The notes: generated by a model not told the origin, from the sequence alone. A stretch of 64,000 nucleotides of DNA from Hyphomicrobiales bacterium (GCA_027483895.1 JAIXTP010000002.1:62001-126000); one strand, 5' to 3'. Positions 3,053-45,068 are shown, counted from the first letter of the stretch. Program-made: numbers and translations.

Positions 3053-4486
3053 ATGGGAATCGCCTTTCCGACCCCCGATGCCGACATTCTGGCGCGCCGC
3101 GAGGCGATCGTGGCGGGGCTCGCGCGCCTGCTGCCGCCGGGCGGGCTCGTGACCTCGGAAGACGAGCGCCGCGCCTTCGAGACCGACGCCTTCACCGCCT
3201 ATCGGCGTATGCCGCTGGCGGTCGCGCTGCCCTCGTCCACCGAAGAGGCGGCGGCGGTGATGCGGTTCTGCCACGAGAACAGCGTGAAGGTGGTGCCGCG
3301 GGGTGCCGGCACCTCGCTCGCCGGCGGCGCAATCCCGCAGGAGGACGCCGTCGTGATCGGCGTCTCCAAGATGAACCGGGTGCTCGACGTGAACTTCAAG
3401 GACCGCACGATGCGGGTCGAGGCCGGGATCACCAATCTCGCGATCTCCAACGCCGTGATGCACGAGGGCTTCTTCTACGCGCCCGATCCGTCGTCTCAGC
3501 TCGCCTGCACGATCGCGGGCAATATCGGGATGAATTCCGGGGGCGCGCACTGCCTGAAATACGGCGTCACCACCAACAACATCCTCGGCGTGAAGATGGT
3601 GCTGGTCGACGGCACGGTGGTCGAGATCGGCGGCGACGCGCTCGACGCACCCGGCTACGACCTGCTCGGCCTCGTCGTCGGCTCGGAAGGGCAGCTCGGC
3701 ATCGTGACGGAAGCCACCGTGCGCATCCTGCGCGCGGCCGAAGGGGCCCGACCGGTCCTGTTCGGCTTCGAGACGAGCGAGCAGGCCGGCGCCGCCGTCG
3801 CCGCCATCATCGGGGCGGGCATCATCCCCGTCGCGATGGAATTCATGGACAAGCCCGCGATCGAGATCTGCGAGGCCTTCGCCCATGCCGGCTATCCGCT
3901 CGACGTCGAGGCGCTCCTGATCATCGAGGTCGAAGGCTCCGACGAGGAGATGGACTTCACCCTCGCCCGCATCGTCGAGATCGCGCGCAAGCACGGCGTG
4001 AAGACCGTCAAGGAGAGCAAGTCGGCCATGGAGACGGCGGCGATCTGGAAGGGCCGCAAATCGGCCTTCGGCGCCACCGGCCGCGTCGCCGACTATATCT
4101 GCATGGACGGCACCATCCCCACCGGCCGCCTGCCGGAAGTGCTCCGCCGGATCGACGAGATCGTGAAGGGCTACGGCCTGCGCGTCGCCAACGTGTTCCA
4201 TGCGGGCGACGGCAATCTGCATCCGTTGGTGCTCTACGACGTCAACGACCCCGAAGAGGCGCACAAGGCCGAGGAAGCGGGCAACGACATTCTCCGCCTC
4301 TGCGTCGAAGTCGGCGGCTGCCTCACGGGCGAGCACGGCGTCGGGATCGAGAAGCGGGATCTCATGAACGTGCAGTTCGACCCCGTCGATCTCGACCAGC
4401 AGATGCGCGTGCGCGGCGTGTTCGACCGCGGTTGGCTCTTGAACCCCGCCAAGGTCTTCCCGCTCGACCGCCGCATCACCGCCTGA
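3053..4486 (+). CDS. glcD: Glycolate oxidase subunit GlcD (FAD-binding)
   Basis: FAD-dependent subunit of the membrane-associated glycolate oxidase, which oxidises glycolate to glyoxylate. It has 477 aa; the ATG at 3053 follows a strong GGAGGAG. The FAD_binding_4 domain covers about 40-220, with VVPRGAGTSLAGG (pyrophosphate loop) and GNIGMNSGGAHCLKYG. The C-terminal FAD-oxidase domain carries NVFHAGDGNLHPL and the late GEHGVGIEK motif. It is followed by glcE and glcF in the canonical order. D-lactate dehydrogenase is the nearest alternative, but the E and F partners favour glycolate oxidase. Confidence 0.95.
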   Translation: MGIAFPTPDADILARREAIVAGLARLLPPGGLVTSEDERRAFETDAFTAYRRMPLAVALPSSTEEAAAVMRFCHENSVKVVPRGAGTSLAGGAIPQEDAVVIGVSKMNRVLDVNFKDRTMRVEAGITNLAISNAVMHEGFFYAPDPSSQLACTIAGNIGMNSGGAHCLKYGVTTNNILGVKMVLVDGTVVEIGGDALDAPGYDLLGLVVGSEGQLGIVTEATVRILRAAEGARPVLFGFETSEQAGAAVAAIIGAGIIPVAMEFMDKPAIEICEAFAHAGYPLDVEALLIIEVEGSDEEMDFTLARIVEIARKHGVKTVKESKSAMETAAIWKGRKSAFGATGRVADYICMDGTIPTGRLPEVLRRIDEIVKGYGLRVANVFHAGDGNLHPLVLYDVNDPEEAHKAEEAGNDILRLCVEVGGCLTGEHGVGIEKRDLMNVQFDPVDLDQQMRVRGVFDRGWLLNPAKVFPLDRRITA

Positions 4487-37922: not shown

Positions 37923-37936
37923 TTGCCGGCGCGCAA
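37923..37936 (+). promoter_or_regulatory. FNR/NnrR-type box upstream of the DUF1858 gene
   Basis: TTG-CCGGCGCG-CAA, a perfect TTG-N8-CAA dyad in the extended form TTTGCCGGCGCGCAAA, 34 bp before the DUF1858 start codon. Same class as the two boxes at 40224 and 40274. Confidence 0.65.
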
Positions 37937-37970
37937 AGACCGGCGGGGCGGGCGCGGCTAGGAAGGGGGC

Positions 37971-38216
37971 ATGACCGAAGCCGCATCGAACCTCTCGAAA
38001 CGGACGCTCTCCACCACGCCGGTGGACGAGATCCTGCGCAGCTGCCCGCGCTCGGCGGAAGTGTTCATCCACCGCCGGATGCATTGCGTGGGCTGCCCCA
38101 TCGCGTCCTTCCATTCCGTGGAGGACGCGTGCAGCGAACACGGGCAGGAACTCGAGGACTTCGTGGCGGATCTGTGGGCGGCCATGGCCGAGCCCCTGCC
38201 GCGGAACGAGGGCTGA
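37971..38216 (+). CDS. DUF1858 domain protein
   Basis: An 81-aa protein with a DUF1858 (ScdA-N-like) fold: STTPVDEILRSCPRSAEVFI, then HRRMHCVGCPIASFHSVEDA. Paired Cys (CVGC) and the earlier Cys may bind a metal or form a disulfide; the domain is often linked to hybrid-cluster or nitrosative-stress proteins and to electron-transfer partners. It has its own FNR-type box. Its stop is adjacent to the Crp/Fnr gene on the other strand. Confidence 0.85.
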   Translation: MTEAASNLSKRTLSTTPVDEILRSCPRSAEVFIHRRMHCVGCPIASFHSVEDACSEHGQELEDFVADLWAAMAEPLPRNEG

Positions 38217-38912
38217 TCAGGCCTCGCGGCCTTCGGCGAGCATGAACAGCCCGTGCGCGTCGACGACCAGCAGCTTCTGGCGGCCGGCCCGCACATAGCC
38301 CGCCGTTTCCCATGCGCTGATCAGCCGGCTCACGGTGTAGAGGGTCGTGCCGGTCATTTCGGCGATGTCCTGCCGCGACAGGGGCAGGTCGATCAGAATG
38401 CCGTCTTCCGTCTTCCGACCCGCCCGCCCCGCCAGCCGCAGGACGGCATGCGCGACGCGGCGTTCGACCTGCTGGGTCGACATCTCGACGACGCGGGTAT
38501 GGCTGTCCTCGAGCCGCTTGCCGATGGTCTTCATCATCACCGCGGAGAGGGCCGGGACCTTCTCGGCAAGGCTTTCCCATGCCCCGTTCGGCCAGACGAG
38601 GACGACGCTGTCTTCCACCGCCGCCGCGGTCGCGGGATAGGTCTCATGCCCCATCGTGATCGCGATCCCGAACAATTCGCCGGGCGTGACGAAGCGGATG
38701 ACGACCTGCCGTCCGTCGGGCGTCAGCTTGAAGACGCGCAGATGGCCGTGCAGCAGCAGGAAGAAGGAGGTCGAGGGCGCGCCCTGCTCGAAGACCGCGG
38801 CATCCTTCGGGAAACGGACGGAGCGCGCCTCGCGCATCACGGTGGAGAGCGCGTCGTCGTCCAGCCCGGCGAATTGCGGGAGCGAGGCGATCAGGGAGCG
38901 GTCGAGCGGCAT
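38217..38912 (-). CDS. Crp/Fnr-family transcriptional regulator (NnrR/Dnr-like)
   Basis: A 231-aa regulator. The cyclic-nucleotide-binding-like domain (about 10-125) has FLLLHGHLRVFKLTPDGRQV. The C-terminal HTH (about 150-220) has LPLSRQDIAEMTGTTLYTVS, followed by RLISAWETAGYV. The recognition helix contains the E-x-x-S-R type contact set (TxYTVSR) that fits TTG-N8-CAA sites. The protein has no Cys, so it cannot carry the FNR 4Fe-4S cluster; NnrR/Dnr haem-type sensing of NO is the best guess. GATCCCCC lies before the ATG. Nearby targets would be nirK, pseudoazurin and the DUF1858 gene. Confidence 0.88.
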   Translation of the reverse strand: MPLDRSLIASLPQFAGLDDDALSTVMREARSVRFPKDAAVFEQGAPSTSFFLLLHGHLRVFKLTPDGRQVVIRFVTPGELFGIAITMGHETYPATAAAVEDSVVLVWPNGAWESLAEKVPALSAVMMKTIGKRLEDSHTRVVEMSTQQVERRVAHAVLRLAGRAGRKTEDGILIDLPLSRQDIAEMTGTTLYTVSRLISAWETAGYVRAGRQKLLVVDAHGLFMLAEGREA

Positions 38913-38995
38913 CGGGGGATCTCCGCCGGTAAGAGGCCGGACCGTAGCCGTTCGGACGCGTTGCGGAAACTTCGGGACAGTCCCGATACGCGGAA

Positions 38996-39018
38996 GGGCC
39001 CGGGGAGTTCCCGGGCCC
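38996..39018. terminator. GC-rich hairpin behind nirK
   Basis: Perfect 9-bp stem GGGCCCGGG (38996-39004) and CCCGGGCCC (39010-39018), loop GAGTT, 23 bp beyond the nirK stop on the minus strand. No clear T-run follows, so it may be a weak terminator or an RNA-stabilising hairpin. Confidence 0.55.
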
Positions 39019-39041
39019 TGTCCTGCGCCTTACGGATGTCC

Positions 39042-40154
39042 TCAATGACCGACGGCCTGGGCCGACCGGGTGGGGTTGTGATCCTTGAAGACGACCGGGT
39101 TGTCCGGACCGTCGACCTGAAGGATGCCCGCCAGCCCCTTTTCGACCCGGCTCAGCGCATGGTCGACGAGGATGTAGTTGCCGGGAACCTCGACCTTGAA
39201 GTCCACGAAGGTGGCGCCGCCGGGAGGCACGGTCACCGTCTGCACGTCCTTCACCACGCCCGAGGTCGCAGACCCCATCGGATAGACCTTGTCGAAGATC
39301 TCGCCGATCACGTGGAACGAGGAGGTGAAGTTCGGGCCACCGACGCCGAAGAAGATCCGGACGGTCTCGCCCGTCTTGGCCTTCAGCGGCTTGTTCTTGG
39401 CGATGGCGCCGACGGCGCCGTTGAAGACGAAGAATTCCGGCCGCTCGTTGACGAGCTTGTCGTAGCTCTCGGTCAGTTCGCCCTTCGCGCCGATCTTCTC
39501 CTCCGTGTAGATCTCGCCCTGCATCACGTAGAACTCGCGATCCACCTTCGGCAGGCCGCCTTCGGGCTCGACGAGGATCAGGCCGTACATCCCGTTGGAG
39601 ATGTGCTGGGCCACCATCGGCGTCGCGCAGTGATAGACGTAGAGGCCCGGGTTCATCGCCTTGAACTCGAAGCCGCGACCCTCGCCGGGCGCCGCCTCCG
39701 TCGCCTTCGCACCGCCGCCGGGGCCGGTGACCGCGTGGAAGTCGACATTGTGCATCATCACGCTGTCGTCCTTGTTCTTCAGCGAGACCTCCACGGTGTC
39801 GCCGACCTTCACGCGGACGAAGGGACCCGGGACCTTGTCGTTGAAGGTCCAATATTTGTAGGTCGCGCCGTCGGCCAACTGGCCGGTCACTTCGGTCGTC
39901 TCGAAGTCGACCTTCACCCGGCGGGGGCCGCGGGCGCCGATCGGCCCGGGCAGATCCGTCGGATCGCGCACCACGTCCACGATGCTCGCCACGGTCTTGG
40001 CCGCTTCGGCATGGCCGGTCGCGGCGGACGCCATATGGACCTTGCCCTCCATGGCCGACGCGCCGAGCGTCGCTGCCGCAAGCAGAGCCGCCGCGGCGAC
40101 GCCTGCGAAGAGCGGATTGCGGGGAAGGGCGGAACGGGCGGGTTTCATCTTCAT
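39042..40154 (-). CDS. nirK: Copper nitrite reductase (class II type)
   Basis: A 370-aa periplasmic NirK, two cupredoxin domains. Signal peptide about 1-34 (hydrophobic AGVAAAALLAAATLGASA). Type-1 ligands His135, Cys176, His184, Met189; type-2 ligands His140, His175, His332; catalytic Asp138 and His281. The linker of eight residues between Cys176 and His184 is the class II (AniA-like) form. It resembles the C-terminal part of the other NirK in this window, without the extra cupredoxin. FNR-type box at 40224-40237 lies 70 bp upstream. The probable electron donor pseudoazurin is encoded divergently. Confidence 0.96.
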   Translation of the reverse strand: MKMKPARSALPRNPLFAGVAAAALLAAATLGASAMEGKVHMASAATGHAEAAKTVASIVDVVRDPTDLPGPIGARGPRRVKVDFETTEVTGQLADGATYKYWTFNDKVPGPFVRVKVGDTVEVSLKNKDDSVMMHNVDFHAVTGPGGGAKATEAAPGEGRGFEFKAMNPGLYVYHCATPMVAQHISNGMYGLILVEPEGGLPKVDREFYVMQGEIYTEEKIGAKGELTESYDKLVNERPEFFVFNGAVGAIAKNKPLKAKTGETVRIFFGVGGPNFTSSFHVIGEIFDKVYPMGSATSGVVKDVQTVTVPPGGATFVDFKVEVPGNYILVDHALSRVEKGLAGILQVDGPDNPVVFKDHNPTRSAQAVGH

Positions 40155-40223
40155 CTCCTTCGTCGGGCGCCGCCTCGGGCGCCTCGAATGACCGGACCAT
40201 AAGAAGGGCCCGGCTCACGCTCT

Positions 40224-40237
40224 TTGCTTTTGCGCAA
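40224..40237. promoter_or_regulatory. FNR/NnrR-type box (nirK side)
   Basis: TTG-CTTTTGCG-CAA; perfect TTG-N8-CAA dyad 70 bp upstream of the nirK start. Confidence 0.7.
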
Positions 40238-40273
40238 GGAAGGCCCCGGGTTCGGCAGAGGGCTTCATTCTGT

Positions 40274-40287
40274 TTGTTCCGGCGCAA
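40274..40287. promoter_or_regulatory. FNR/NnrR-type box (pseudoazurin side)
   Basis: TTG-TTCCGGCG-CAA; perfect TTG-N8-CAA dyad, flanked as TTTGTTCCGGCGCAAA, 57 bp upstream of the pseudoazurin start. Two separate boxes serve the divergent pair. Confidence 0.72.
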
Positions 40288-40344
40288 ACAGGGGCGTCCG
40301 CCGCGCGGCTAGGAACGAGGCATCACTTCAAGAGGAGAAGAGCG

Positions 40345-40800
40345 ATGTCTCTCGCCCGCCTGTCCCTGCCGATCGCCGCCGCAGCCTTCGCCTTCGCGGC
40401 CGGTTCGGCCTCCGCCGCCGAGATCGAGGTGCGCATGCTCAACCGGGGCGCCGATGGCCCGATGGTGTTCGAGCCCGCTTTCGTGAAGGCCGCGCCGGGC
40501 GACGTGATCCGCTTCGTCCCGACCGACAAGGGGCACAATGCCGAGACCATCGAGGGCATGCTTCCCGAAGGCACCGCCGTCGTGGTCGGCAAGATGAACG
40601 AGGAGCTGACCCTCAAGGTCGAGAAATCCGGCGTCTACGGCCTCAAATGCAAGCCGCATTACGCCATGGGCATGGTCGCGCTGGTCGTGGTCGGCGAGCC
40701 CGGTTCCGTCGACGCGGCCAAGGCCGTCCAGCATCCGGGCAAGGCGAAGACCGTCTTCGCGCAGCTCTTCGAACGCGCGGGCGCCGCGGCGTCCCGCTGA
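40345..40800 (+). CDS. Pseudoazurin (periplasmic blue copper protein)
   Basis: A 151-aa type-1 copper protein, signal peptide 1-24 (ends SASA/A). Cu ligands are His64 (KGHNAET), Cys102, His105 and Met110 (LKCKPHYAMGM), exactly the pseudoazurin pattern. It would carry electrons to NirK. The ATG follows AGAGGAG. Divergent from nirK and followed by ccoG after 43 bp. The C-terminal tail (115-151) is longer than in most pseudoazurins. Confidence 0.95.
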   Translation: MSLARLSLPIAAAAFAFAAGSASAAEIEVRMLNRGADGPMVFEPAFVKAAPGDVIRFVPTDKGHNAETIEGMLPEGTAVVVGKMNEELTLKVEKSGVYGLKCKPHYAMGMVALVVVGEPGSVDAAKAVQHPGKAKTVFAQLFERAGAAASR

Positions 40801-40843: not shown

Positions 40844-42259
40844 ATGGTCGCCCTCGACGTTTCCCACTCCCGCCGCCGCCGCGTGTCCGACGCGGCGGTT
40901 CCCCAAAGCGTGAAGGGACGGTTCCGCCGGCTCAAGACGCGGATCGCCGTCGCGGGCTCCGCGGTGTTCTTCCTGCTGCCCTGGATCCCGTGGAACCGGG
41001 GCGAAGGCCGGCCCTACGGCGCCGTGACGTTCGATCTCGCCGCGGGCCGCTTCCATCTCTTCGGCCTCGAGCTGCGGACGCAGGAACTCTATTTCCTCAC
41101 GGGCTTCCTGCTCTTCGCCGCTCTCGGCCTCATCCTCGCCAATGCGATCGCGGGGCGGGTCTGGTGCGGCTTCGCCTGCCCGCACACGGTGTGGAGCGAC
41201 GCCTTCCTGTTCATCGAGCGGCTCGTGGAGGGCGACCGGCGCGAGCGGCTGAAGAAACGAGAGGCGAGGCTCTCGGGCCGCCGCATCGCCGAGATCGCGA
41301 CGAAGCACGCGCTCTGGATCGCGCTGTCGGCTGCGGTCGGCATCGGCACCGTGCTTTATTTCGGCGACGCGCGCGTCCTGCTCGCGGATCTCGTGGGCGG
41401 ACGCGCGGATCCGATCGCCTACGGCCTCGCGGCCTCCGTCGCGGTCACCGTTTACGCGCTGGGCGGCTTCTTCCGCGAGACGATGTGCAAATTCATGTGC
41501 CCGTGGCCGCGGCTGCAGGGCGCCATCTGGGATCCCGAGGCGCTCTCGGTCACCTATCGCGACATGCGCGGCGAGCCCCGCACCTCGCCCAAGAAGGCGG
41601 TCGAACTCCGCGCGGCCGGAAAGCCCGCGGGCGATTGCGTGGATTGCGACCTCTGCGTCGCGGTGTGCCCGATGGGCATCGATATCCGGCAGGGGCCGAG
41701 CATCGCCTGCATCAATTGCGGCCTGTGCGTCGACGCCTGCGACGGCGTGATGGGCAAGCTGTCCCGCGCCCGTGGGCTCATCGACTTCGTCGCATGGACC
41801 GAGATCGAGGCGCTCCGGCGCGGCGAGAAGCCGCTCGCTCCGCGCATCGTGCGGCCGAAGACGGCGGCGCTCGCGGCGGCATTGTTCGGGCTCGTCTTCG
41901 CGGCGGGGCTGACGCTCGAATTGCGCGTCGAGACCGCGATGAGCGTGCAGCACGACCGCAATCCGTTGTCCGTGCGCCTCTCCGACGGCCGCGTGCGGAA
42001 CGGATACACCCTTCGCGTGTCGAACAAGACCGATCAGGAACGCCGCCTGAAGCTCGAAGTGCTGGCGGCGGCCCCGGTCGAAGTCGCGGTGATCGGCGGG
42101 GAGACCGCGGCCGGCGAGATCCTGCTGCCGCCCGATGCGGACCGCGAGATCCGCGTCACCGTCGCCGCCCGGCCCGAAGCGGCCGGACCGTTGACCTTCG
42201 TCGGCGTCGACCCCGCCACGGGGCAGGACGTCCGCATCTCCGACACCTTCATCCGCTAG
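40844..42259 (+). CDS. ccoG: Cytochrome c oxidase accessory protein CcoG/FixG/RdxA
   Basis: A 471-aa membrane-bound polyferredoxin. The N-terminal membrane region carries GRVWCGFACPHTVWSD and CKFMCPWPRLQG, and two 4Fe-4S motifs follow: CVDCDLCVAVCPMGID and CINCGLCVDAC. The C-terminal Ig-like FixG domain is periplasmic. CcoG acts in copper delivery to cbb3 oxidase by reducing Cu(II). No cco structural genes are here; its place after pseudoazurin suggests service to the copper enzymes of this cluster. Confidence 0.94.
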   Translation: MVALDVSHSRRRRVSDAAVPQSVKGRFRRLKTRIAVAGSAVFFLLPWIPWNRGEGRPYGAVTFDLAAGRFHLFGLELRTQELYFLTGFLLFAALGLILANAIAGRVWCGFACPHTVWSDAFLFIERLVEGDRRERLKKREARLSGRRIAEIATKHALWIALSAAVGIGTVLYFGDARVLLADLVGGRADPIAYGLAASVAVTVYALGGFFRETMCKFMCPWPRLQGAIWDPEALSVTYRDMRGEPRTSPKKAVELRAAGKPAGDCVDCDLCVAVCPMGIDIRQGPSIACINCGLCVDACDGVMGKLSRARGLIDFVAWTEIEALRRGEKPLAPRIVRPKTAALAAALFGLVFAAGLTLELRVETAMSVQHDRNPLSVRLSDGRVRNGYTLRVSNKTDQERRLKLEVLAAAPVEVAVIGGETAAGEILLPPDADREIRVTVAARPEAAGPLTFVGVDPATGQDVRISDTFIR

Positions 42260-42268
42260 AGGCGCATC

Positions 42269-43456
42269 ATGTCACCGGTTCCGCGCTACAAACCCTTCGC
42301 CGGCCCCGCGGTGTTCACCCAAGGCTTCAGGCCGTTCTTCCTGCTCGCGGGGGTTCACGCCGCCGTGGCGGTGCCCGTCTGGCTCGCGCTTCGCGCCGGC
42401 GCCTTCGACCTGCCGACGCTGTGGTCGCCGCAGCATCTGCATGCGCATGAAATGCTGTTCGGCTATCTCGGCGCGGTGGTCGCGGGCTTCCTGCTCACCG
42501 CGGTTCCGAATTGGACGGGGCGTCTGCCGCTCCAAGGCCCGCCCCTCATCGGCCTCGTGGCGCTCTGGGTGCTGGCGCGGACGGCGGCGCCCTTTTCCGG
42601 CCTTCTGGGTCCGGTCGCATGGGCCGCGGCGGATCTCGCCTTCCCGCTCGCGCTGCTCGCCGCCATCGCCCGCGAGATCGTCGCGGGCAAGAACTGGCGC
42701 AATCTGAAGGTTCTGGTGCTGCTCACGCTGCTGCTGGCCGCAAATCTGGGCTACCACCTCGAAATCGCGTTCCACGGCCATCCGCTTTATGCCGAGCGCG
42801 CCGCCATGGCCGCCATGGTGATGCTGGTCGGGCTGATCGGCGGGCGCATCGTGCCGAGCTTCACGCTCAATCGGTTGCGCCCGCGCGGCGGGCGCCTGCC
42901 CGCCTCCTTCGGGACGCCGGATAAAGCCGCGATGATCGCGGGCGGCGTCGCGCTCGTCGCATGGACGCTGCGCCCCGACTCGCGCATCACGGCGGCGCTC
43001 GCGGCGCTCGCCGGGGTGCTGCATGTGATCCGCTGGGCCCGCTGGGCGGGCGACCGGACGGTGCGCGAGCCGATCCTGCTGGTCCTGCATCTCGCTTATC
43101 TCTTCATCCCGATCGGCTTTCTGCTCGTCGCGGCGGAGGTCCTGACCGCGTCCGTCGGTCCCGTCGCCGCCGTTCATGCATGGGGCGTCGGTGCGTTCGG
43201 ACTGATGCCGCTCGCGGTGATGACGCGCGCCTCGCTGGGGCATACGGGCCACGCTCTTTCGGCCGGCGTCGTCACGGTGGCCGGTTATGCGGCCATGTTC
43301 GCGGCCGGTCTGCTCCGCATCGGCGCGGCGACCTCGGCACCTTGGGCCGAGCCGCTGCTCCTCGCCTCGGCGGCGGCGTGGTGTGCGGCTTTCGCGGCCT
43401 TTCTGATAGGCTTCGGGCCGATCCTCACGCGCCCCGCCTTCCGTCGGCCCGCCTGA
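42269..43456 (+). CDS. nnrS: NnrS family protein (haem-copper NO-stress protein)
   Basis: A 395-aa protein with about twelve helices. The family motif SPQHLHAHEMLFGYLGAVVA leads into GFLLTAVPNWTG; further HMxxxx His residues occur at GHTGHALSAGV. NnrS members carry haem and copper and relieve nitrosative stress in denitrifiers. It starts 9 bp after ccoG and is followed by the DUF411 gene after 16 bp. Confidence 0.94.
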   Translation: MSPVPRYKPFAGPAVFTQGFRPFFLLAGVHAAVAVPVWLALRAGAFDLPTLWSPQHLHAHEMLFGYLGAVVAGFLLTAVPNWTGRLPLQGPPLIGLVALWVLARTAAPFSGLLGPVAWAAADLAFPLALLAAIAREIVAGKNWRNLKVLVLLTLLLAANLGYHLEIAFHGHPLYAERAAMAAMVMLVGLIGGRIVPSFTLNRLRPRGGRLPASFGTPDKAAMIAGGVALVAWTLRPDSRITAALAALAGVLHVIRWARWAGDRTVREPILLVLHLAYLFIPIGFLLVAAEVLTASVGPVAAVHAWGVGAFGLMPLAVMTRASLGHTGHALSAGVVTVAGYAAMFAAGLLRIGAATSAPWAEPLLLASAAAWCAAFAAFLIGFGPILTRPAFRRPA

Positions 43457-43472: not shown

Positions 43473-43937
43473 ATGATCGACCGCCGTTCCTTCCTCGCCG
43501 CCGGCACCGCGCTGCTCGTCGCGGCGCCCCTGCGCGCGCAATCGGTTCCGCCGATCCGCGTCTTCAAGGATCCGGATTGCGGTTGCTGCGGTACATGGGC
43601 CGCGCGCCTGAGGGCGGCGGGTCTTCAGGTCCGCGTCGAGGAGACGCGCGATCTCGCGACCGTGCGGGCGCGGCTCGGCGTGCCCGACGCGATGGCGTCC
43701 TGTCACACGGCTGAGTTCGGCGACTACGTGCTGGAAGGCCATGTGCCGCCGGCGGAAATCCGCCGGCTCGTCGCCGAACGGCCCGTCTGCCGCGGACTGG
43801 CCGTGCCCGGAATGCCCGTCGGGTCTCCGGGCATGGAGACGCCGGGCGCCGTTCCCGACGTCTATGACGTGATGCTGTTCGGCGGTTGCGGCGGCCCCGA
43901 GGTCTTCGCGCGGTATCGCGGGACGGAGCGGATCTGA
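43473..43937 (+). CDS. DUF411 (CopG-like) periplasmic metal-binding protein
   Basis: A 154-aa exported protein with a Tat/Sec-like leader MIDRRSFLAAGTALLVAAP. The DUF411 core has FKDPDCGCCGTWAARL (Cys36, Cys38, Cys39) and MASCHTAEFGDYVLEGHVPP, with GMPVGSPGME containing a Met-rich loop. DUF411 proteins bind copper or reduce oxidised metal sites in the periplasm. Its position at the end of the pseudoazurin-ccoG-nnrS unit suggests copper supply to NirK or pseudoazurin. It converges with the rhodanese gene across 4 bp. Confidence 0.87.
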   Translation: MIDRRSFLAAGTALLVAAPLRAQSVPPIRVFKDPDCGCCGTWAARLRAAGLQVRVEETRDLATVRARLGVPDAMASCHTAEFGDYVLEGHVPPAEIRRLVAERPVCRGLAVPGMPVGSPGMETPGAVPDVYDVMLFGGCGGPEVFARYRGTERI

Positions 43938-43941
43938 CCGC

Positions 43942-44286
43942 TCAGGCCTCGATCGCGCCGCCTCGGGCGATCCAGCCGCCCGTGCCCGGCGCGTAATGCA
44001 CGGCCTCGCGGCCCGCCGCGCGGACCTCGCGCAGAGCGCGGAGGGAGCGCCCTCCGGCCTGACAGACGAGGATCACCGGCCCGTCATGAGGCGGGAGGTC
44101 GGCGGGCGAGAAGCGCGAGAGCGGCAGGTTGACCGCGCCCGGAATGTGCCCATTGGCGAACTCGTTCGGCTCGCGCACGTCGATGATCGGCGTGCCCGCA
44201 TCCACGGCCCGCAGCATCGCCTCGTGATCGACGGTCAGGTCGGCGCCGCCGCCGCCGAGCAGCCCTTTGAGGAAGCCCAGCATCAC
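43942..44286 (-). CDS. Rhodanese-domain sulfurtransferase
   Basis: A 114-aa single rhodanese domain. Motifs TPIIDVREPNEFANGHIPGA and ILVCQAGGRSLRA, with catalytic Cys75 in a six-residue CQAGGR loop. A Gly-rich N-terminus precedes the domain. The last gene of the BigR-like operon; the start overlaps the AhpD-like stop (ATGA). Proposed role: persulfide transfer or sulfide detoxification, as in YgaP. Confidence 0.92.
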   Translation of the reverse strand: MMLGFLKGLLGGGGADLTVDHEAMLRAVDAGTPIIDVREPNEFANGHIPGAVNLPLSRFSPADLPPHDGPVILVCQAGGRSLRALREVRAAGREAVHYAPGTGGWIARGGAIEA

Positions 44287-44642
44287 GCGGTCGCGTTCTT
44301 CGCGGCGAACTGATCGAAGGCTTCGACGGCGTGGCTCGCATACATGACCGACGGGCCAGCGCCCATATAGATCGCGAGGCCGAGGGTCTCGAGCACCTCC
44401 TCGCGCGTCGCGCCATGAGTTACCGCCGCCTTCGCATGGAAGGCGATGCAGTCGTCGCAGCGGATGGCGACGCCGATCGCCAGCGCGATCAGCTCCTTGG
44501 TCTTCGTGTCGAGCGCCTCGGGCTTCAGCGCCGACTGCGCGATGGCGGAGAAATTCTTCATCACCTCGGGGGCACCGCCGCGCAGGTCGCGCAGCGGGCC
44601 GGAGGACAGCGTTTCGGCGAAGGCGGCCCAGTCACGGAGCAT
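44283..44642 (-). CDS. AhpD-like carboxymuconolactone decarboxylase family protein
   Basis: A 119-aa CMD-domain protein with the redox motif RCDDCIAFHAKAAV (Cys62, Cys65, His69) of AhpD-type peroxidase partners rather than true decarboxylases. The central TKTKELIALAIGVAI helix is typical. It follows the haemoglobin gene by 15 bp and overlaps the rhodanese start by 4. Likely a thiol oxidoreductase acting on peroxide or persulfide stress. Confidence 0.9.
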   Translation of the reverse strand: MLRDWAAFAETLSSGPLRDLRGGAPEVMKNFSAIAQSALKPEALDTKTKELIALAIGVAIRCDDCIAFHAKAAVTHGATREEVLETLGLAIYMGAGPSVMYASHAVEAFDQFAAKNATA

Positions 44643-44657
44643 CGGGAAATCCTTTCG

Positions 44658-45068
44658 TCAGTCGCGGTTGCGCATATGCGCCGCAAGGGATTCGACCCGC
44701 GGCATCAGGAAGGCGGTGAGTTCCGGCTTGTCGACGACCGTTTCGGCCCATGCCCTGCGGAAGCAGAGCAGCCAGCCGTCGATCTCCGCCGTTCCGATGG
44801 GCGCATGCAGATGCCGCGCCCGCAGCATCGGCGGTCCGCGTCGCTCGACGAAGAGCGGCGGCCCGCCGAGCCAGCCGGTGAGATATTCGAACAGTTTCTC
44901 GCGGCTCTCGCTCATGTCGGCCGGGTGGATCGCGCGGCAGGCGGCGGCTTCCGGCAATTCGTCCATGAGGTCGTAGAACCGGTCCACGAGGCGTCGGATC
45001 CCGGCTTCGCCGCCGCAGACCTCGTAGAGCGTCTTCGCGGGAACGGCGCTTTCGGAGGCTTCTGTCAC
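44658..45068 (-). CDS. Group II truncated haemoglobin
   Basis: A 136-aa 2-on-2 globin. Proximal His86 in LRARHLHAPI, Trp99 at G8 (IDGWLLCFRRA) and Phe31-Tyr32 at B9-B10 identify group II, which binds O2 tightly and can scavenge NO or peroxide. The start codon is GTG at 45066-45068 and overlaps the stop of the preceding 39-codon gene (GTGA), so coupling fixes the start. Role in this operon: likely protection from sulfide/NO/oxygen stress. Confidence 0.93.
   Translation of the reverse strand: MTEASESAVPAKTLYEVCGGEAGIRRLVDRFYDLMDELPEAAACRAIHPADMSESREKLFEYLTGWLGGPPLFVERRGPPMLRARHLHAPIGTAEIDGWLLCFRRAWAETVVDKPELTAFLMPRVESLAAHMRNRD

Follow-up and report, generated by a model that had tools for sequence, protein, structure and literature searches.

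A probable NnrR-type denitrification and NO-response regulon that includes a DUF1858 gene in a Hyphomicrobiales bacterium

Which regulator controls a copper nitrite reductase gene and its neighbours, and does a small DUF1858 protein, a member of a widespread family without assigned function, fall under the same control? These questions are raised by a locus within a window of 64,000 nucleotides, the whole stretch of DNA that was analysed. An earlier note had placed exact TTG-N8-CAA boxes before the DUF1858 gene, nirK and the pseudoazurin gene, and all three were found in the sequence where it had put them. The box of the DUF1858 gene (37923..37936, + strand) reads TTGCCGGCGCGCAA and is followed by AGA, as in relatives. 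The box of nirK (40224..40237, − strand) reads TTGCTTTTGCGCAA on the + strand and TTGCGCAAAAGCAA, then AGA, on the − strand. The box of pseudoazurin (40274..40287, + strand) reads TTGTTCCGGCGCAA and is followed by ACA. The distances from box end to start codon were 34, 69 and 57 bp for DUF1858, nirK and pseudoazurin, respectively; the earlier values of 34 and 57 bp were reproduced, while the 70 bp given for nirK was corrected to 69 bp.

The core alone was not rare. TTG-N8-CAA occurred at 120 sites in the 3.15-Mb genome and four times in the window (shuffling gave an expectation of 3.75), the fourth and last match lying at 4439-4452. Since many other genes carry the bare core, it is insufficient by itself, and bare-core counts were set aside as uninformative evidence. 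The pattern TTG-N5-GCGCAA showed no excess genome-wide over the reversed pattern, and under the full matrix the cores of its remaining matches reached no more than 7.0 bits, compared with 18.9-21.2 bits for the three boxes. The unusual feature is the clustering of boxes in promoters. The two intergenic regions span 350 bp, for which the genome rate predicts about 0.013 cores, and they contain three.

A −10-like hexamer, absent from the earlier note, started exactly 21 bp past each box, reading toward the gene (3/3). The hexamers were CTAGGA for DUF1858 (37958..37963, + strand), where relatives have similar letters at the same place, TTATGG for nirK (40197..40202, − strand, read from 40202 to 40197) and CTAGGA for pseudoazurin (40309..40314, + strand). 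Such a spacing between box and −10 is expected of class II Crp/Fnr activation from a site centred near −41.5, and the 21 bp at all three boxes fit this putative layout. In the DUF1858 gene (37958-37975), the predicted transcription start falls at or beside the ATG, and the message would then lack a leader. Box and domain are equally far apart in relatives, whose translation begins at a later ATG behind a 5' leader, so this gene may have a leaderless mRNA or an unusual start.

A matrix covering box and −10 was trained on 35 distinct boxes of DUF1858 promoters from other genomes, and both strands of the window (about 128,000 positions) were scanned. Because every training promoter had been picked for its core and for a TA near −10, what the matrix adds to the core lies in the flanks (CAA-AGA), the inner bases and the position of the −10. 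The boxes of nirK, pseudoazurin and DUF1858 took ranks 1, 2 and 3 in the window with 21.2, 20.0 and 18.9 bits, respectively, each oriented toward its gene. The next, unrelated site in the window reached 12.4 bits and the best site in 640 kb of simulated sequence 15.2 bits. As to whether many unrelated genes carry equally good boxes, a point raised in the earlier note, this holds for the bare core with its 120 sites, but by box and −10 together the three boxes stand at the top of the window. Elsewhere in the same genome, a site near position 478 (− strand) of locus L004 scored 17.4 bits with this matrix and lacked the strict core (TTGCGCCTCAGGAA). That a short and common core has clustered here by chance, as its genome-wide abundance and its about expected number in the window would allow, is extremely improbable, because 200,000 first-order Markov simulations of both intergenic regions never produced three boxes, the same 21-bp gap to a −10-like hexamer recurs at all three boxes, an independent matrix ranks them as the top three, and they are conserved across dozens of genomes.

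The DUF1858 gene (37971..38216, + strand) encodes an 81-aa protein of the NnrR-linked type with a CVGCP motif, scoring 47.7 bits with PF08984 (cut-off 32.2) and 75.2 bits with TIGR03980 (cut-off 44.95). The regulator gene (38217..38912, − strand) is convergent with it and lies downstream of nirK (39042..40154, − strand; TIGR02376, 332 bits, above cut-off). No box was found before the regulator gene itself, and a strong hairpin (38996..39018, no strand assigned), given by fold prediction and without a T run, separates it from nirK; this hairpin is a possible attenuator or terminator. Divergent from nirK is the gene for pseudoazurin, the electron donor to NirK (40345..40800, + strand; TIGR02375, 155.6 bits, above cut-off). 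It is followed after 43 bp by a gene for a polyferredoxin of the CcoG/RdxA/FixG family (40844..42259, + strand; TIGR02745, 403.5 bits) and, after a further 9 bp, by a gene for NnrS, a haem-copper NO-tolerance family (42269..43456, + strand; PF05940, 342.7 bits). The ccoG-like and nnrS genes, absent from the earlier note, likely share the pseudoazurin transcript as downstream members of the regulon. The last gene of the run encodes a DUF411 protein (43473..43937, + strand; PF04214, 86.8 bits), whose membership in the regulon is uncertain. Next to this run, genes for a rhodanese, an AhpD-like (CMD) protein and a truncated haemoglobin occupy 43942-45068 on the − strand, with genes for an ArsR-like regulator and an RND efflux system coming after them; a strict NnrR box was not seen among the genes of 43942-45068.

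The genome, which is 93% complete, encodes three PF00115 oxidase subunits: aa3, cbb3 and a third that matches no NCBIfam model above cut-off and whose CuA subunit neighbour suggests a ba3 type. None of the three was NorB by NCBIfam, an absence that is provisional at this completeness, and an NO reductase partner among them was rejected on this basis. If the genome is complete in this respect, the organism is possibly a nitrite reducer with NirK and without a classical NO reductase, in which case its NO tolerance genes would matter more.

The regulator contains PF00027 (the cNMP-binding-type sensor fold) and PF13545 (the Crp-type HTH), both above cut-off. Its 231 residues include no Cys, as had been noted earlier, and it is without the FNR-type Cys cluster motif. 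FNR uses a recognition-helix Glu to read the A of TTGAT. The helix TL[H/Y]TVSR, or nearly so, was present in 85 sequences and is TLYTVSR here; the FNR Glu is replaced, in line with the TTGC and TTGT sites of this locus. Close relatives of the regulator were found in 66 of 298 genomes of the order (E <= 1e-40). In the tree, it lay in the same part as the B. diazoefficiens locus L074 and an identical row, L034, and its nearest rows all have DUF1858, its exact placement being unsure as the end branch is long (0.52) and several forks are open. The box before the L034 regulator is TTGCGCTATCGCAA, the same as the published box of nnrR, blr7084 (PMC6710368). A missing FNR-type Cys motif is typical of the NnrR clade, the NnrR consensus is ctTTGcgnnnncgCAAag, and NnrR and Dnr form separate clades, according to a comparative-genomics study (PMC1274295). 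The tree, the recognition helix, the independent matrix and the conservation of the boxes support assignment of the regulator to the NnrR type; of the NnrR/Dnr label used in the earlier note, NnrR is kept and Dnr, a separate clade, is dropped.

Regulons of this kind are known. In the same study, the consensus ctTTGcgnnnncgCAAag is described before nir, nor and nnrS genes of alphaproteobacteria, like the sites here, and its main text has no occurrence of pseudoazurin, unlike the predicted regulon here (PMC1274295). The closest published case is the NnrR regulon of B. diazoefficiens, with blr7084 (nnrR), bsl7085 (DUF1858) and blr7089 (nirK), in which nnrR and DUF1858 are likewise convergent, boxes precede DUF1858 and nirK, and NnrS is nearby (PMC6710368). 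There, bsl7085 lies beside nnrR and has the box TTGCGCTCCAACAA at −62. It was upregulated 133.8-fold in anoxic denitrifying cells and downregulated 29.2-fold in the nnrR mutant (PMC6710368, Table 1), and the corresponding changes for nirK were +161-fold and −21-fold. The two loci differ in that nnrR of B. diazoefficiens has its own box, TTGCGCTATCGCAA, and hemN adjoins DUF1858, whereas here the regulator gene lies after nirK and lacks a box, the divergent partner is pseudoazurin and no norB-type gene is among the PF00115 matches.

An alignment scan of 84,980 species genomes gave 343 DUF1858 relatives, and the best 80 of the 343 loci were fetched. Many of these 80 are from Bradyrhizobium and are not independent; others are from genera including Microvirga, Bosea, Chelatococcus, Mesorhizobium and Pseudaminobacter. 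The 300 bp before the CxGC motif contained a TTG-N8-CAA box in 77 of the best 80, and the regulator, NnrS and NirK were encoded within 8 kb of DUF1858 in 74, 72 and 60 of them, respectively. The box was also conserved in relatives before pseudoazurin (32/32) and nirK (64/65). Membership of DUF1858, called the less expected part in the earlier note, is borne out by the 77 boxes, and it had already been measured for bsl7085 in B. diazoefficiens (PMC6710368); what is new here is the breadth of the link between DUF1858 and NnrR across relatives.

Within the family to which the window belongs, the DUF1858 gene occurred in 13 of 149 genomes, and these were exactly the 13 with the closest regulators (56-64% identity, the genome's own regulator excepted). 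The 20 family genomes with more distant regulators had no DUF1858 gene, and two other genomes of the same genus had neither gene. DUF1858 adjoined the regulator in 12 of the 13 family genomes, and at class level (385 genomes) all 12 DUF1858 loci were beside a regulator homologue. In Microvirga and Bosea loci (L065, L066, L069, L070, L077 and L116), DUF1858 is transcribed divergently from a gene for DUF59 FeS_assembly_P, which is preceded by a TTG-N8-CAA-AGA box of its own and may be a further NnrR target. Some loci had DUF2249, NnrU or an Rrf2-type regulator near DUF1858, and L119:6145-6660 encodes a DUF2249-TusA fusion near DUF59, an Rrf2 regulator, DUF1858 and NnrR. In Microvirga brassicacearum (L065:8950-9540), a nirK remnant lies between the regulator and pseudoazurin genes while boxes and DUF1858 are kept, as if nirK could be lost without the rest of the locus.

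The same promoters could instead be read as FixK sites, with low oxygen alone driving them through FixLJ-FixK and the NnrR-type regulator acting on few of them or indirectly. The genome encodes a FixK-like regulator (helix LTLETVSR) beside a FixJ-like response regulator, and two of the three boxes agree with the FixK2 consensus TTG(A/C)-N6-(T/G)CAA. However, the TTGAT half-site typical of FixK/FNR, which a recognition-helix Glu reads, is in none of the boxes, that of pseudoazurin beginning with TTGT, and the protein encoded beside DUF1858 in the family genomes and class-level loci counted above is of the NnrR type, not FixK. In B. diazoefficiens, nirK is a direct target of FixK2 and NO build-up in the nnrR mutant has indirect effects (PMC5582078), so that NnrR may act indirectly at some boxes here as well; yet bsl7085 fell 29-fold in the nnrR mutant (PMC6710368). 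Control by FixK in place of NnrR is unlikely on this evidence, and some boxes may be shared with FixK or driven by it.

A local NnrR-type denitrification and NO-response regulon that includes DUF1858 is very probably the best account of the locus. In this regulon, a dimer of the Cys-free regulator would bind the TTG-N8-CAA sites, whose centres lie about 41.5 bp upstream of the three transcription starts, and activate, in class II manner, the DUF1858 gene, nirK, and the pseudoazurin, ccoG-like and nnrS genes. Transcription of nirK perhaps reads through into the regulator gene, and low oxygen may prime the same promoters through FixLJ-FixK. We infer that NO is the signal: NO from NirK would raise nirK, its electron donor and the NO-protection genes.

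What the DUF1858 protein does within this regulon was approached through its residues, fold and neighbours. Residues C39, G41, C42, P43, H48, A53 and H57 were invariant in 45 relatives, and the protein is probably a small cytoplasmic helical thiol protein with an invariant C-x-G-C-P. Its AlphaFold model, from an alignment built from loci only, was of fair quality (mean pLDDT 82.5); in a separate alignment, one of 23 sequences had its GTG start region given with M. The best Foldseek matches were the solved DUF1858 structures 2K53, 2K5E and 2FI0, the first two of which were also found by sequence profile. The next were the N-terminal part of YtfE in 5FNY (probability 0.89) and 5FNN (0.80), weak at a Foldseek E-value of about 2; another YtfE chain followed at 0.28 and all others were at or below 0.13. 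In hhalign, DUF1858 matched ScdA_N with P 2.8e-5 and a probability of 74%, weak in E-value terms. By model and profile, DUF1858 is possibly a distant relative of the ScdA_N domain of YtfE/ScdA (RIC).

ScdA_N (PF04405) shares with DUF1858 its small size, helical fold, conserved pair of Cys and NO or nitrite stress context; it differs in having vicinal CC-GG and a fused di-iron domain, while the DUF1858 protein here has C-x-G-C-P and stands alone. In YtfE, nitrite is reduced to NO at a di-iron site that receives electrons from the ScdA_N Cys pair (PMC9052748). ScdA_N occurs in other proteobacteria and was found neither in this genome nor in 101 genomes of the order. Membership of DUF1858 in ScdA_N/RIC proper was rejected, as the 81-aa single-domain protein has no PF04405 match and no fused di-iron hemerythrin-like domain. 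The hybrid cluster protein partnership implied by the TIGR03980 name was also rejected here, since no prismane/Hcp protein (PF03063) was found in the 93% complete genome.

The kinship with ScdA_N in fold and profile, and the DUF59 FeS_assembly_P, DUF2249, NnrU and Rrf2-type neighbours, point to a part in thiol redox or in the upkeep of iron centres under NO as the most likely job of DUF1858, a role we put at about even. In a few cases, DUF59 and DUF1858 occur in one fused protein (PMC4982691). The main alternative, that DUF1858 modulates the regulator as a co-sensor or feedback partner and is not an NO-stress or iron-centre protein, is somewhat unlikely. It would account for a pairing with the regulator that is tighter than with any enzyme gene (a 13/13 match in the family and 12/12 at class level) and that holds while nirK or nnrS neighbours vary, but gene pairing can reflect shared transfer, and the ScdA_N fold kinship and neighbours such as DUF59 FeS_assembly_P point to chemistry. 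A parallel is offered by Thermus DrpB (DUF1858-DUF2249-DUF2249), a DUF1858 protein induced in nitrate respiration under the CRP-like regulator DnrT, on which it depends; it restrains dnr and nar expression (PMC6282519). DrpB is, however, larger and multi-domain, belongs to another phylum and has a negative effect on master regulators of nitrate respiration (PMC6282519), compared with the single 81-aa domain here. In a more specific and rather doubtful form, with DrpB as a distant parallel, single-domain DUF1858 would be a dedicated NnrR partner that, through the thiols of C-x-G-C-P, senses NO or redox state alongside the regulator or modulates it by feedback, acting on it or protecting its activity; if true, this would explain why DUF1858 tracks the regulator more faithfully than any denitrification enzyme.

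The result bears on the DUF1858 family, a subset of which appears as a conserved NnrR partner, with the box and the class II layout kept across many alphaproteobacteria. This partnership, taken with one published expression data set, ties the subset to NO physiology, and the possible kinship with ScdA_N, in an order whose sampled genomes lack ScdA_N, suggests how DUF1858 might work.
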